A DNA stretch of 16,897 nt from Promethearchaeota archaeon (GTDB lineage Archaea; Asgardarchaeota; Lokiarchaeia; Sigynarchaeales; SOKP01): contig JAUXAJ010000082.1 in the NCBI GenBank assembly GCA_030620005.1, positions 1-16,897 of the forward strand, written 5' to 3'. The position numbers were made by a program, and so were the translations under genes. A model generated the notes under the pieces. That model saw only the letters and a program-made list of their open reading frames with translations, searched no databases and was not told the DNA's origin. This document shows positions 4,563-14,568 of the stretch, piece after piece. Every line of letters begins with the position of its first letter. The first letter of the stretch is position 1.

Positions 4563-5231
4563 ATGGAAAAGAAAAGAAAAAGATCAAGAGCACGTGCGCC
4601 GGAGAAAAAAGCAAAGCAATTCGAACAAATTTTAGACACGGGTAAAGAATTATTTGTAAAATATGGCACCCACGGATTTAGTCTGCGAGCCTTGGCAAAG
4701 CAACTGGACATGTCGCAAACGAACCTTTATAATTACGTTGAGAGCAAGAGAGAACTCTGGATTGCTATAAGAAAAAGATATTATACCGAATTTCTTAATG
4801 GAATTTCTAATATTATAGATAATCATGAAGGAAAAAACATTGGTCTATTTTTAAAGTTGTCAGAATATTATTTAGAACACGCTAGTCAGGATTACAAGCG
4901 TTTTTTAATGATGTATTCGATTTTGGCTCCACCATCTAAGAAAGTTGGCCCATTAGAGCAAGCTTACGAACCGTTTCAGTTGATGAGAAGAGTATTTAAC
5001 TTATTTCAGCGAGCAATCGATGTTAACGAATTTAAACAAGAAGAAGCAGTTGAGCGTATTTACTATTTTTATGGATTGCTTTTTGGCGCAGCCAAGGTTG
5101 AAGCCGATCTCAAATTAAGCGCAAAAATTACAGAACCAATCAGGGTCGATTCTAAAGACTTTCCAGCCCTCGAATTTAGAAAATACGTGCTGAAACGAAT
5201 TCGAAAGTTTCTTGAAGAAATGTCTGTTTGA
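4563..5231 (+). CDS. TetR/AcrR-type transcriptional regulator
   Basis: A 222-residue DNA-binding regulator. The N-terminus is strongly basic (KKRKRSRARAPEKKAK), which is unusual for TetR proteins and may add DNA affinity. Residues about 20-66 form the TetR helix-turn-helix: QILDTGKELFVKYGTHGFSL, then RALAKQLDMSQTNLYNYVESKRELW, with the typical Y-x-Y/F-x-x-K end. The remaining helices form a variable ligand-binding domain without recognisable sequence. A clear ribosome binding site precedes the ATG. The gene is divergent from the polyprenol-kinase-type gene and upstream of the oxidoreductase / acyl-CoA dehydrogenase genes. Members next to acyl-CoA dehydrogenases often sense acyl-CoA, but that link is only suggested by position. 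Confidence 0.9.
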   Translation: MEKKRKRSRARAPEKKAKQFEQILDTGKELFVKYGTHGFSLRALAKQLDMSQTNLYNYVESKRELWIAIRKRYYTEFLNGISNIIDNHEGKNIGLFLKLSEYYLEHASQDYKRFLMMYSILAPPSKKVGPLEQAYEPFQLMRRVFNLFQRAIDVNEFKQEEAVERIYYFYGLLFGAAKVEADLKLSAKITEPIRVDSKDFPALEFRKYVLKRIRKFLEEMSV

Positions 5232-6738: not shown

Positions 6739-6782
6739 TTCTTAAAATATTTAAGTTTTAAATTATAAGATTGAAATAGTAT
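6739..6782 (+). promoter_or_regulatory. Duplicated promoter segment, copy 1 (ahead of acyl-CoA dehydrogenase)
   Basis: A 44-base segment that matches 8749-8792 with one mismatch (A at 6760, G at 8770). It contains the inverted repeat CTTAAA-ATA-TTTAAG (6741-6755), directly followed by a TATA-like AATTATAA (6761-6768). The expected transcript start lies about 25 bases after the TATA element, some 45 bases before the ATG at 6835. The inverted repeat overlapping the upstream promoter edge suits a regulator site. Confidence 0.7.
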
Positions 6783-6834
6783 TATTTTTTAAATCTTTAT
6801 GTTGAAAAAATCACAAATTTGAAAAGTTGATATA

Positions 6835-8574
6835 ATGAATATATTATTAAATCCTAAGAAACACACTCGCTATTATCCCGATGATCGTTCGAGAGAAATA
6901 ATGCTTAAGACGATTGAGTTTTTTGAAAAAAAAGGTTTAGCAAAAATCAAGGAAGACGACCGCAATAACACTTGGTACCGTAATTTTCTTGATTTTATTA
7001 AGGAAAATAAAATTTTTGCGCAGCTTCTAACGCCTACTCAATACGGAGAAGATGAAAATTACCGATGGGATACTTGGCGTAATTGCGAGTTTAACGAAAT
7101 CCTCGGATTCTACGGCATTGGCTACTGGTATACATGGCAGGTAACAATTTTGGGGCTTGGACCAATTTGGATGAGTAAAAATGAGATTGCTAAAAAGAAA
7201 GCCGCTAAATTACTTAATGAAGGAGCGATATTTGCATTTGGTCTTTCGGAGCAAGCCCACGGTGCGGACATTTATGCAACGGAGATGGCTCTCACCCCTC
7301 AAGATGATGGAACTTACAAAGCGAATGGAGTAAAATATTACATTGGAAATGGGAACGAAGCAGAAATGGTTTCTAATTTTGGTAAATTTGCCGATAAGGA
7401 TGGAAAGATACCCCCTTATGACATGAAGAACAAAGAACAGTATGCATTCTTTATTGCGAATTACAAGCATAAAAACTATGAATTGATACAAAATGTAGTT
7501 AGTCACCAGAATTACGTTTCTCAATATGCTTTAAATGATTATCCAATTACTGAAGACGAGATTCTTTCTAAAGGAGAAGAAGCGTGGAATGCTTCGCTTA
7601 ATATTGTCAATGTAGGCAAGTATAATTTAGGATGGGGTTCCATTGGAATCTGCACGCACGCGTTTTATGAAGCAATCCATCACGCCGCCTACCGAAGGCT
7701 TTATAACATGTATGTCACCGATTTTCAACATGTTAAACAGAGTTTCGTGGATGCTTACGCGCGATTAACAGCCATGAAGCTTTTTGGATTGAGAACTTGT
7801 GATTATATTCGTGTAGCTTCGGAAAAGGACCGCCGATATCTCCTCTATTCGCCTACGATGAAAATGAAAGCGACAACGCAAGGCGAGGAAGTGATAAATT
7901 TACTTTGGGACGTGATAGCTGCAAAAGGCTTCGAAAGGAACATGTATTTTGAAATGGCTGCGAAAGATATCCGATCATTTCCGAAACTGGAGGGCACGGT
8001 GCACGTGAACCTTGCATTGATTCTTAAGTTCATGATGAATTTTTTTATGAACCACAAAAAATACGAAGATGTGCCAAGGCAAGACCAAGTTGGAGACGAC
8101 AAATTCCTTTTCAACCAAGGGCCAACTCGAGGTTTATCAAAAATTCGCTTTCACGATTGGAAACTGGCCTTTGAAAGATATGATTTACCTAATGTTAAAA
8201 TTTTCTTGGAACAAGTACAAATTTTCCAAGAGCTTGGAGCAAAAGCACCACCAAGTTCTAAACAAATGAAGGATTTGGATTTCATGCTTTCAGGAATTGG
8301 AGAGCTGTTTGCACTAATCGTTTATTCGCACTTAGTCATTGAAAACGCTTCTATCTACGATATAGATAAAGATACAGTAGATCAGATTTTTGATTTTTTA
8401 GTTAGGGATTTCTCGAAATATGCACTAGACCTATATCATAAGTCAGGCACTACACAGGTGCAAATGGAAATGTGTTTAAAAATGATCAAAAAGCCCAATG
8501 TCGATATGGAGCGATTTAATAGGGTTTGGAAAATCGTGCATTCGTTGAAAGACGCCTATAAGATGAACGATTGA
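6835..8574 (+). CDS. Acyl-CoA dehydrogenase, long (579-residue) form
   Basis: FAD enzyme that introduces an alpha-beta double bond into an acyl-CoA. Residues 133-172 hold the family signature: FAFGLSEQAHGADIYATE, then DDGTYKANGVKYYIGNGNE, where the flavin and the substrate bind. The central C-terminal helical domain includes the dimer/FAD region AYRRLYNMYVTDFQHVKQSF (285-304) and TTQGEEVINLLWDVIAAKGF (347-366). KLEGTVHVN at 384-392 places Glu386 at the catalytic base position. An extra region of about 180 residues follows the base and makes the protein much longer than the usual roughly 380, as in the long-chain and AidB-like branches. The upstream promoter segment is shared with the M24 gene. 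The acyl substrate is not evident. The start has only a weak upstream GTTGAT. Confidence 0.93.
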   Translation: MNILLNPKKHTRYYPDDRSREIMLKTIEFFEKKGLAKIKEDDRNNTWYRNFLDFIKENKIFAQLLTPTQYGEDENYRWDTWRNCEFNEILGFYGIGYWYTWQVTILGLGPIWMSKNEIAKKKAAKLLNEGAIFAFGLSEQAHGADIYATEMALTPQDDGTYKANGVKYYIGNGNEAEMVSNFGKFADKDGKIPPYDMKNKEQYAFFIANYKHKNYELIQNVVSHQNYVSQYALNDYPITEDEILSKGEEAWNASLNIVNVGKYNLGWGSIGICTHAFYEAIHHAAYRRLYNMYVTDFQHVKQSFVDAYARLTAMKLFGLRTCDYIRVASEKDRRYLLYSPTMKMKATTQGEEVINLLWDVIAAKGFERNMYFEMAAKDIRSFPKLEGTVHVNLALILKFMMNFFMNHKKYEDVPRQDQVGDDKFLFNQGPTRGLSKIRFHDWKLAFERYDLPNVKIFLEQVQIFQELGAKAPPSSKQMKDLDFMLSGIGELFALIVYSHLVIENASIYDIDKDTVDQIFDFLVRDFSKYALDLYHKSGTTQVQMEMCLKMIKKPNVDMERFNRVWKIVHSLKDAYKMND

Positions 8575-8594
8575 GAAATGGGAGAAAAAAATTC

Positions 8595-8627
8595 ATAAAA
8601 ATCTATCATAGCGATTTTTATTTTTTT
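8595..8627 (+). terminator. Hairpin plus T-tract terminator after acyl-CoA dehydrogenase
   Basis: ATAAAAATC (8595-8603), a 9-base loop, then GATTTTTAT (8613-8621): a perfect 9-base stem, followed at once by a T-tract to 8627. It lies 21 bases after the stop codon, so the acyl-CoA dehydrogenase is probably its own transcription unit. Confidence 0.6.
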
Positions 8628-8748
8628 ACTATTTAAAGAGTTTTTTATCGCTCCCGAATAAATCAATGGTTTCAAGATTTGTGAGTTTCATTTTTAATTC
8701 TCTCAAAAAGCTGTTCTTCTTATTGTTTCACATTTATAGTATCAAAAT

Positions 8749-8792
8749 TTCTTAAAATATTTAAGTTTTGAATTATAAGATTGAAATAGTAT
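8749..8792 (+). promoter_or_regulatory. Duplicated promoter segment, copy 2 (ahead of M24 gene)
   Basis: Second copy of the 44-base segment at 6739, with one mismatch. It has the same inverted repeat CTTAAA-ATA-TTTAAG (8751-8765) and TATA-like AATTATAA (8771-8778). Its distance to the preferred start at 8854 is 61 bases, close to the 52 in the first copy. The flanks outside it are unrelated, which argues for selection on this block. Confidence 0.7.
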
Positions 8793-8853
8793 ATTCAATA
8801 TTATTAGTAAGATTAATATAAAAAATTAGTATAGACATATGGAGATGCATTTA

Positions 8854-10053
8854 ATGAGTGAAATTAAAATAAATTGGCAAGGACATGTGAAAAAATATCA
8901 AGCCGCAATGGAGGAGCTTAACCTCGATTTTTGCGTGCTTACTCGCGTGAAATCAATAACTTACCTTGCAGGGTGTTTCGTCCCCTGGAAGAGTGCCATA
9001 TTTTTACCAAAAGAAGGTGCAGGAGAACCCGTGCTATTTACCGTGTTATTAGATGTAGAACGAGTTAAAGCAGAAGGAGTCCTCGATACTCAAGGCTGGG
9101 GACCAATGAAAGGATTCTACTGGGAAAAGAATATTCAAAAAGCGGCAAAGAAGGCGGGATTATACAAGCCAAAAGGGCCTCCTCCAAGAATCGGAGTTGA
9201 ACTCGGTTTAGACATTTGCGTGACAGGAACAATGCTCTCGTATACGGAGTCAGAACTCTTAAAAAAGGTATTCCCAGGTTGTACATTAGAGGATTTTAAT
9301 GGGAAAACAGAAAGGATACAATTCATTAAAGAACCCGAAGAAATCGCCATGTTGCGAAAAGCCAGTGAAATAACGGATGTTGGCCAGGAAGTGGTAAAAA
9401 AAACCTTAAGTGAGCGCCCTCCAGGCAAAGTCTTTACGGAAAACGAAATTGCTGGAATAGGAACTCTAGCAATGAGGAAAGCGGGCAGTAATTACGAATG
9501 GACTTTCACGGGAAACCAAGAGATTGGATCAGGGTATCGAGCAAGTTGGACTTTTAATGGCTGTACACCGGCAACGAATAAACAAGTGAACGAGGGAGAA
9601 TCCTTATTAGTAGATTTACATAGCGAATATGGATGTTACCTAGGGGATTTGAGCCATAATTATATTCTTGGTAATTGTCCGCCTGAATTAAAGGCGTTCA
9701 ACGATGTATACGAGCAATTGTGTTACGCGCTCATAGATAACATGTATCCAGGAAATACATTCGAGAATTGCTACCAAGAAGTAAGGAAAGTTGCCGATAA
9801 GGCAGGATACGCCAACGATTTATTCTTTGGATTGGGGCACGGAATTGGATGTATAGGGAACGAATCATGGCCAGTTGTTGTACCTGGGAAAGAATGGGGC
9901 CCAATGGTGTTTGAGGAAAACATGGTAGAAATAGCTGCTGTTGTTTTCAATCGTCCTGGACTTGGAGGGTTGCGACTGGAGTCACCTACCCTTGTTACCA
10001 GTAAAGGGGCAGAAGTCCTCCCTAAAACACCGTTTGAAGTGGATTATATTTAA
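8854..10053 (+). CDS. M24-fold (creatinase / Xaa-Pro peptidase-like) hydrolase with altered active site
   Basis: A two-domain pita-bread protein of 399 residues, with numbering from the start at 8854. The N-terminal creatinase-like domain spans about 5-150 (LDFCVLTRVKSITYLAG). The catalytic domain starts with KEPEEIAMLRKASEITD. Metal-ligand candidates are Asp254 (VDLHSEYG), Asp265 (GDLSHNY), His329 (GLGHGIG) and Glu376 (LRLESPTLVT). The usual second His of the HGxGxxxHE pattern is Asn336 (CIGNESWP). The usual MxxxxEP ligand lies in NMVEIAAVVF without Pro, Glu359 being the only candidate. This makes it uncertain that it is a normal peptidase; it could be a creatinase- or lyase-type member. GGAG at 8841 lies 9 bases before ATG 8854, which is why I prefer it to ATG 8839. 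It shares its promoter segment with the acyl-CoA dehydrogenase. Confidence 0.85.
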   Translation: MSEIKINWQGHVKKYQAAMEELNLDFCVLTRVKSITYLAGCFVPWKSAIFLPKEGAGEPVLFTVLLDVERVKAEGVLDTQGWGPMKGFYWEKNIQKAAKKAGLYKPKGPPPRIGVELGLDICVTGTMLSYTESELLKKVFPGCTLEDFNGKTERIQFIKEPEEIAMLRKASEITDVGQEVVKKTLSERPPGKVFTENEIAGIGTLAMRKAGSNYEWTFTGNQEIGSGYRASWTFNGCTPATNKQVNEGESLLVDLHSEYGCYLGDLSHNYILGNCPPELKAFNDVYEQLCYALIDNMYPGNTFENCYQEVRKVADKAGYANDLFFGLGHGIGCIGNESWPVVVPGKEWGPMVFEENMVEIAAVVFNRPGLGGLRLESPTLVTSKGAEVLPKTPFEVDYI

Positions 10054-13243: not shown

Positions 13244-14568
13244 TTGTCAAGAATAAAACCAGCATGGTACGAAGCAGACATAATTAAAGAGAGCATGAGT
13301 AATATGGGTGGGAGAGCAGTTCGAGGTGTCATGTCGAATTATTTTTCATCCCGGATATATACTGGAAAAATGGGCTTGCTTCAAGTTACGAATTATTTGG
13401 AAGCGCGATTTGATGAAGAGGAGAGAAGAGCATTAATCATTTGTGATGATTTTACACAAAGATATGCTAAGAAAGTCACGGATTTCTTGGATACCATTAA
13501 CATGGTGTGGAAAATATGGCCAAATGTCATACCTGAAGTTCCTTTTTCTACAATTGAAGAAGGAGCTAAAGCATGTGAGGAATTTAAACCGACTGTGATT
13601 TTCACGATTGGGGGAGGTTCCGTCATGGACGCCTGTAAGATGATCATGATTAAATATGAAAGGCCTGATGTGAATCTCTTAATGATATTACCCTTTTTTG
13701 GATCTTTAGGATTACGAAAAAAGGTAAAATTGTGGATTGCGATATTTACTACCTCTGGAACTGGTGCTGAAGTCACTTAAGCAGCAGTTATCACGGATAT
13801 TGATAGAGATCCTCCAAAAAAAATTGAGGTTCTGAGTGACGAGATATTTTCTGATATCGTTATCTTGGATACCGATTTCGTGAAGGATATGCCCCCATTA
13901 TTAACAATGGGTTCAGGGCTCGACGCTCTTGCCCATGCTGTGGGAAATTAATGCTTGATATCCATGCATAAACTCAAGGCTATGTTTCAAATTGGGGCAC
14001 GCCCTATATTGATGCCGTTAATCTAATGGCAATAAAAGAGACTCTTAAATATCTTCCTAGAGCCTATAAGTATGGTGCGAAAGATTTAGAAGCACGATCA
14101 CACATGCAAATGGCTTCATTGATGGCAGGTATAGGATTTGGGAATACCATAACAGGAATAGACCACTCTTTAGGACATAGTTGCGGAAAAATCTTCAAAG
14201 TTCACCACGGAATTTGCGTAGCATTATTCTTACCTTATTCCATTCAATTTCAAAAAAGCGTGACCGATAGGTGGCAAGATTTATGCCCGCTTTTCGGAAT
14301 AACCATAGAAAATAAGGAGAGAGATGAGTTATTTAAAGAATTCATTCAAGCTCTTAGAGAATTCATGCATTCTTTAGATGGTCCTACCCGTGTAAAAGAT
14401 TTAAAACATCCTATAATAACAAAAGAAGAATATTTTGAAAAATTAGATATATTAGCTGAATATGCAGATAATGATGCCGTATCTCTAACATCTTATCGTC
14501 CTATCAATAAAGAACTCTATAAAAAAATATATGAATACGCGTGGGATGGTCGAGAAATTGATTTCTAA
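13244..14568 (+). pseudogene. Iron-containing alcohol dehydrogenase, broken reading frame
   Basis: Would reduce or oxidise alcohols/aldehydes with NAD(P) and Fe2+. A TTG start at 13244 is supported by GGTGAT 8 bases upstream. Conserved parts in order are FTIGGGSVMDACKM (NAD binding) and FTTSGTGAEVT, then an in-frame TAA at 13778. The same frame resumes as AAVITDIDRD and DMPPLLTMGSGLDALAHAV, which holds the first Asp and His iron ligands. After GN comes a second TAA at 13949. Family sequence reappears in a different frame, TQGYVSNWGTPYIDAVNLM, from about 13972 and continues through GIDHSLGHSCGKIFKVHHGICVALFLPY (further iron ligands) to 14568. Total length is not a multiple of three. So at least one stop and one frameshift region break it, unless the assembly is wrong. 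The remnant from 14026 is a 180-residue frame on its own. It sits immediately before the aldehyde oxidoreductase. Confidence 0.85.

Follow-up and report, generated by a model that had tools for sequence, protein, structure and literature searches.

A 44-base segment stands in two nearly identical copies, one ahead of a gene for an acyl-CoA dehydrogenase (ACAD) family protein and one ahead of a gene for an M24-fold protein, within the window (the whole 16.9-kb stretch of DNA analysed here, 16,897 bases). The duplication is real and lineage-specific, and most likely reflects a promoter copied between two newly adjacent genes; it is of an ordinary kind, its mechanism and direction are uncertain, and it gives no evidence for a new pathway. 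Since the segment is truly duplicated and sits at promoter position before both genes, the simplest reading is that the two genes share a promoter in this organism. An earlier note on this DNA had proposed that the two genes are under shared control; the duplication at promoter position stands, whereas the operator, the TetR-type regulator and the pathway which that note attached to it are not supported. The features referred to are as follows.

6739..6782, + strand: segment copy 1, in the spacer ahead of the ACAD gene
8749..8792, + strand: segment copy 2, identical to copy 1 at 43 of 44 positions, ahead of the M24-fold gene
6741..6755 (copy 1) and 8751..8765 (copy 2), no strand assigned: palindrome CTTAAA-ATA-TTTAAG, no commoner than in shuffled spacers
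6755..6762, + strand: GTTTTAAA, candidate TATA box, which fits the VYTTWWAA consensus
6761..6768 (second copy 8771..8778), + strand: AATTATAA, the TATA-like element of the earlier note, an alternative TATA assignment
6835..8574, + strand: ACAD family protein, 579 aa, with an EGT motif
8839..10053, + strand: M24 (prolidase-fold) family protein, 404 aa
4563..5231, + strand: TetR-family regulator, family confirmed, no link to the segment found

The sole mismatch between the copies is A6760 versus G8770, and identity is 35-39% over the 20, 50 and 100 bases on either side, which gives the duplication sharp edges. The best ungapped match between the two spacers scores 40, as compared to 15 or less in 200 dinucleotide shuffles. 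The claim that 6739-6782 and 8749-8792 form a near-identical pair in spacers otherwise unlike each other is thus borne out on both counts. These are the only two copies in the window. Both are oriented toward their own gene and stop 46-61 bases short of a start codon: copy 1 ends 52 bases before the ATG of the ACAD gene at 6835, and copy 2 ends 46 bases before the ATG of the M24 gene at 8839 or 61 bases before an ATG at 8854, which is where most M24 orthologues in our alignment start. The inverted repeat was also described as fused to the TATA-like element, but five bases separate CTTAAA-ATA-TTTAAG from AATTATAA.

The ACAD protein has only distant relatives among solved enzymes, the best being a butyryl-CoA dehydrogenase (E 1.3e-11). 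A 95% identical ACAD is encoded on a 6437-base contig in ENA. Its EGT motif is one that we presume to bear the catalytic Glu in related enzymes. The M24 protein is highly conserved among Asgard archaea, with 18 aligned relatives 82-89% identical to the protein of the window. We take the Glu of the prolidase IEPG motif to be one of five metal ligands. Compared to an Xaa-Pro dipeptidase (1wy2), this Glu is replaced in the M24 protein by Ala (A367), which is invariant in 19 aligned members, so the protein may carry out chemistry other than proline peptide hydrolysis, and calling it an altered M24 protein was a fair description. Further along the window, an iron-containing alcohol dehydrogenase gene (13244-14568, + strand) adjoins an aldehyde:ferredoxin oxidoreductase gene and looks broken, with an in-frame stop and a later frame change; its counterpart in a relative (locus L062) reads through as one frame.

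Named protein relatives of the genes in the window came mostly from Promethearchaeota, Lokiarchaeota or other Asgard archaea, with one ACAD entry labelled Glassbacteria, and the M24 search yielded 35 loci, every title of which reads Lokiarchaeia or Lokiarchaeota. When 42 bases of the segment were searched for with up to three mismatches, no match was found in any of 83 Lokiarchaeia genomes. DNA identity between the window and these genomes was at most 79% among the matches listed, and the species itself and its very close relatives are therefore absent from the set. The 22-base right half of the segment retrieved 70 matches in the 83 genomes and its reversed control 50 (our counts), none with fewer than two mismatches. 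Among the 35 M24 loci of relatives, just two stretches resemble the segment at 31 or more of 44 positions, one of which lies ahead of M24 (genome G062). A viral origin of the segment was considered and set aside: the 44-mer had no match by blastn to phage records, and its exact 28-base core, the only form searched there, occurs in no viral contig scanned.

These searches bear on whether the segment could be a repeat of the dispersed or mobile type, with many copies in the genome before or between unrelated genes. The sharp edges and near identity of the copies are what such a repeat would leave, and in genome G042 a piece of the ACAD upstream region is copied to a place with no gene behind it (see below). 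Nevertheless, we consider a mobile repeat improbable. The segment is absent from the related genomes and, as an exact core, from the viral contigs, no terminal inverted repeats of the MITE type were seen, and both copies are rightly placed and oriented before genes.

The gene neighbourhood of M24 in the window is unusual. The gene immediately upstream of M24, on the same strand and at a gap of 106-262 bases, encodes a CDC48-like ATPase (Pfam CDC48_N plus two AAA stretches) in 25 of 30 relative loci; the count is 23 of 28 when two contigs that were entered twice are taken once. Locus L015 (7550-11203) provides an example of this conserved pair. The five loci without the ATPase gene directly upstream are L001, L007, L021, L098 and L104. 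The CDC48-like ATPase gene has no match in the window, where M24 sits behind ACAD instead. Because its usual neighbour is missing, we conclude that the M24 gene of the window has moved away from its usual position, and the same has happened in a few other lineages. Neither the TetR nor the Gfo/Idh protein of the window was found in any of the 35 relative M24 loci (E <= 1e-15). Around ACAD, no neighbouring gene family recurs in more than five of 25 loci, with the window counted.

Two of the 35 M24 loci (L013 and L015) contain the end of an ACAD gene, in both cases at a contig edge. In genome G001, this ACAD end shares 141 identical bases with a second contig that carries the rest of the gene, which places M24 and ACAD about 6.5 kb apart; in genome G002, where the two contig ends are 95% alike, about 7.5 kb separates them. 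M24 was within reach in none of the 24 ACAD loci that were retrieved from other genomes. This last result is what would be expected if unrelated contigs had been wrongly joined at the 44-mer during assembly. Such an error is very unlikely, as the copies differ by one base, each is flanked on both sides by unique sequence, and ACAD is linked to M24 in G001 and G002 as well.

The inverted repeat inside the segment had been taken as a possible binding site for a regulator. The 2365 spacer bases of the window contain 31 inverted repeats (arms of 6, loops of 0-8); shuffled spacers average 30.8 +/- 7.8, and of 2000 shuffled 44-mers, 893 carry one or more. When the loop is fixed at 3, the window has 6 such repeats, two of which are those of the segment copies, and the shuffles have 3.7 +/- 2.0. 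Across the 83 genomes, the palindrome with a TTTTRAA tail retrieved 30 matches, and the reversed-pattern control retrieved 28 (counted from the table of matches). At chance level in the window's spacers and without enrichment in the genomes, the palindrome is rejected as evidence for an operator.

We then compared ACAD and M24 across the relatives. The M24 protein is present in 36 of the 83 genomes (E <= 1e-80) and ACAD in 30, with both in 16. ACAD identity is at least 76% in 27 of the 30, some of the matches being fragments. In 20 of the 36 M24-bearing genomes there is no ACAD match at E <= 1e-80, although one of these, G005, holds a 78% identical fragment. Likeness between the ACAD and M24 upstream regions, taken as the mean local-alignment score between them, was 17.19 when both came from one of the 16 genomes and 17.12 when they came from different ones (permutation p=0.47). 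When upstream regions were ranked within each genome by their likeness to that of ACAD, the number of other genes scoring equal to or better than M24 was 0 of 19 in G046, 1 of 19 in G078, 1 of 5 in G001, 2 of 24 in G052, 2 of 12 in G008 and 3 of 23 in G037, and M24 ranked lower in the other ten genomes. These ranks appear to lean slightly toward ACAD-M24 likeness, with a possible bias in that M24 starts were taken from the alignment and those of other genes from the longest ATG frame. A conserved element upstream of ACAD was found once each in seven of the 83 genomes, always before ACAD; being found solely there, it is gene-specific and not the mark of a regulon.

It is on this evidence that a shared operator has to be weighed, in which one regulator acting on the palindrome would co-regulate ACAD and M24 as a functional pair, with the arrangement kept by selection. 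The palindrome is intact in both copies, ACAD also lies near M24 in G001 and G002, and the six genomes with high M24 ranks fit the idea. Against this, palindromes of this size occur at chance level and this one is not enriched, upstream likeness within genomes is that of permuted pairs, and M24 was out of reach in the 24 ACAD loci fetched. We therefore regard a shared operator as unlikely. A conserved ACAD-M24 regulon is rejected on the permutation result and the gene-specific ACAD element. The earlier note had gone on to suggest that the two genes form an unrecognised pathway, which finds no support in upstream regions that are not alike beyond chance or in M24-bearing genomes of which 20 of 36 have no ACAD match at E <= 1e-80.

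The regulator proposed for the segment was the TetR-type protein encoded at 4563-5231, and its assignment to that family was correct. A precedent exists in FadR of Sulfolobus acidocaldarius, a TetR-family protein that controls beta-oxidation genes and represses a 30-kb gene cluster by way of near-identical operators, including one at the fadR gene itself, with a 16-bp ChIP-defined motif (PMC6449355). The likeness consists of an archaeal TetR-family regulator, acyl-CoA dehydrogenase genes, and semi-palindromic sites repeated in one neighbourhood (PMC6449355). FadR binds its own control region, whereas no match to the palindrome within two mismatches lies upstream of the window's TetR gene. The window also contains no beta-oxidation cluster, and its palindrome is no more frequent than expected by chance. 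Relatives of the TetR protein occur in 46 of the 83 genomes (E <= 1e-12), and in the 12 TetR loci fetched, which reach only about 1.5 kb to each side, neither ACAD nor M24 was present. Genome G006 instead has three TetR genes near those for archaeal-lipid enzymes. A FadR-type regulon, judged by enrichment of the operator and by an operator at the regulator's own gene, is thus not supported, and we consider control of the segment by this TetR protein highly improbable; the lack of an upstream palindrome, the occurrence of TetR relatives in 46 genomes, and the 12 loci with neither ACAD nor M24 within about 1.5 kb led us to discard it. The G006 genes (L154, C6:290261-292665) are three in tandem, all kin of the window's TetR gene.

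Which of the two genes first owned the segment was approached by comparing it to the upstream regions of relatives. When both strands of the window were scanned with a 48-column profile built from the ACAD elements of 11 relatives, the top match, at 6743, overlapped copy 1 and scored only 4.5 of a possible 64; the next match scored 2.8. With shorter ACAD-element profiles, copy 1 was not ranked first. With nhmmer, a profile built from 25 ACAD upstream regions matched 8742-8764 only at E=14, and copy 1 was absent among the matches listed. A diagonal match between the ACAD upstream region of the window and those of relatives, TTGAAATAGTA, was equalled by 51 of 100 shuffles. Compared directly to 28 M24 upstream regions, copy 1 matched at best at 31 of 44 positions (in G062; 2 of 300 shuffles did as well), with a mean of 25.2 (0 of 300); compared to 25 ACAD upstream regions, the best was 29 (50 of 300) and the mean 24.8 (56 of 300), which is chance level. 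Copy 2 showed a weaker form of the same trend, with 5 and 12 of 300 shuffles for M24 and 98 and 60 of 300 for ACAD. These hints conflict and perhaps lean toward M24 as first owner; the shuffle comparison speaks against ACAD as the donor.

Such a lean would suit a different history, in which ACAD integrated or recombined ahead of M24, the first owner, and left 44-base direct repeats on either side. The repeats closely flank the ACAD gene, and the 44-mer is closer to the M24 upstream regions of relatives than shuffles are, while it is not so for those of ACAD. A gene for an alpha/beta-hydrolase beside ACAD in G054 is likewise bracketed by direct repeats of 114 bases. Nevertheless, no second gene of at least 105 aa lies between the repeats of the window, and thus no integrase or transposase. 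The likeness to M24 upstream regions is also weak (31 of 44 at most), involves AT-rich sequence, and reaches that level in two stretches of the 35 loci, of which one is before M24. We judge integration of ACAD to be a doubtful account. The repeats in G054 (L073 11167-11280 and 12289-12402) are imperfect, one copy overlaps the 3' end of a gene for a flavodoxin/ferredoxin-domain protein, and the pair looks like the product of an insertion or a local duplication.

Direct repeats were also collected from 49 non-redundant loci (833 kb, window included), and most were coding repeats. Reading frames were inspected for 20 repeat pairs; the remaining entries belong to the same arrays as these. Only two pairs have no open frame of at least 80 aa over either copy, namely that of the window and one in G042, and in four further pairs (L073, L006, L066 at 4417, and L069) a long frame covers one copy but not the other. 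The G042 pair (L066 8941-8973 and 14309-14341) is 33 bases long with one mismatch, 28 bases of it exact; one copy begins 58 bases upstream of the start of ACAD, and the second is found 5.4 kb farther downstream, with no + strand gene of at least 90 aa directly behind it. These 28 bases occur twice in G042 and once in G062, ahead of ACAD, among the 83 genomes. Short local copies thus arise now and then, and they need not serve a gene. A bolder reading would be that Lokiarchaeal promoter segments of about 30-45 bases are portable cassettes, copied locally and open to adoption by newly adjacent genes, with ACAD/M24 here and the exact 28-base ACAD-upstream copy in G042 as two independent instances; we offer it as a long shot.

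As to the promoter itself, the TATA box bound by archaeal TBP is located about 26-28 bases ahead of the transcription start, and TFB binds the BRE just upstream of that box (PMC8553660). In copy 1, GTTTTAAA fits VYTTWWAA, the consensus printed for Thermococcus in that source. Its counterpart in copy 2 is GTTTTGAA (8765-8772), which contains the sole base that differs between the copies and through it departs from the printed VYTTWWAA (PMC8553660). Because that one difference sits in the first TATA candidate, copy 2 could be a weaker promoter than copy 1. Among 530 Lokiarchaeal upstream regions, no clear preferred TATA position emerged, and no title found in a limited literature search on Asgard promoters named mapped Lokiarchaeal promoters. 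Terminator and sigma-70 scans were set aside as unsuited to archaea. The position and composition of the segment suggest that it is a promoter, and co-expression of ACAD and M24 in this organism is plausible on that basis.

The closest parallel that we found is in halovirus HF2, whose intergenic repeats of class I (56-58 bp, seven copies) and class II (29 bp, two copies) keep conserved positions and act as promoters in a reporter assay (PMC8707807). Both systems have short, near-identical, AT-rich intergenic repeats with a BRE and a TATA box, those of the window being candidates, in an archaeal genetic system (PMC8707807), and in the window, too, the repeats lie in spacers before genes and in the sense direction. 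In contrast, HF2 is a virus with conserved copy positions, whereas the window has two copies in one cellular contig that are not conserved (0 of 83 genomes). Promoter activity is also proved in HF2, while that of the window's segment is putative and read from its sequence. Provided that it is a promoter in the first place, the segment would work as the HF2 repeats do.

Our preferred account, which we put at slightly less than an even chance, is that a core promoter was copied once in this Lokiarchaeal lineage as M24 and ACAD became neighbours. The segment would comprise sequence upstream of the BRE, the BRE and TATA box, and the stretch toward the transcription start, with its 3' end shortly before that start. 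A single copying event, either recent or under selection, would have coincided with the two genes becoming adjacent, and TBP and TFB would assemble on both copies, such that nearly the same promoter would drive each gene. A conspicuous promoter repeat that links two metabolic genes is not by itself the sign of a conserved pathway. If the promoter reading is true, the window provides a clear small case of a copied promoter common to two newly adjacent Asgard genes, and if the far less certain cassettes are real, they would represent regulatory rewiring by micro-duplication in Asgard archaea.
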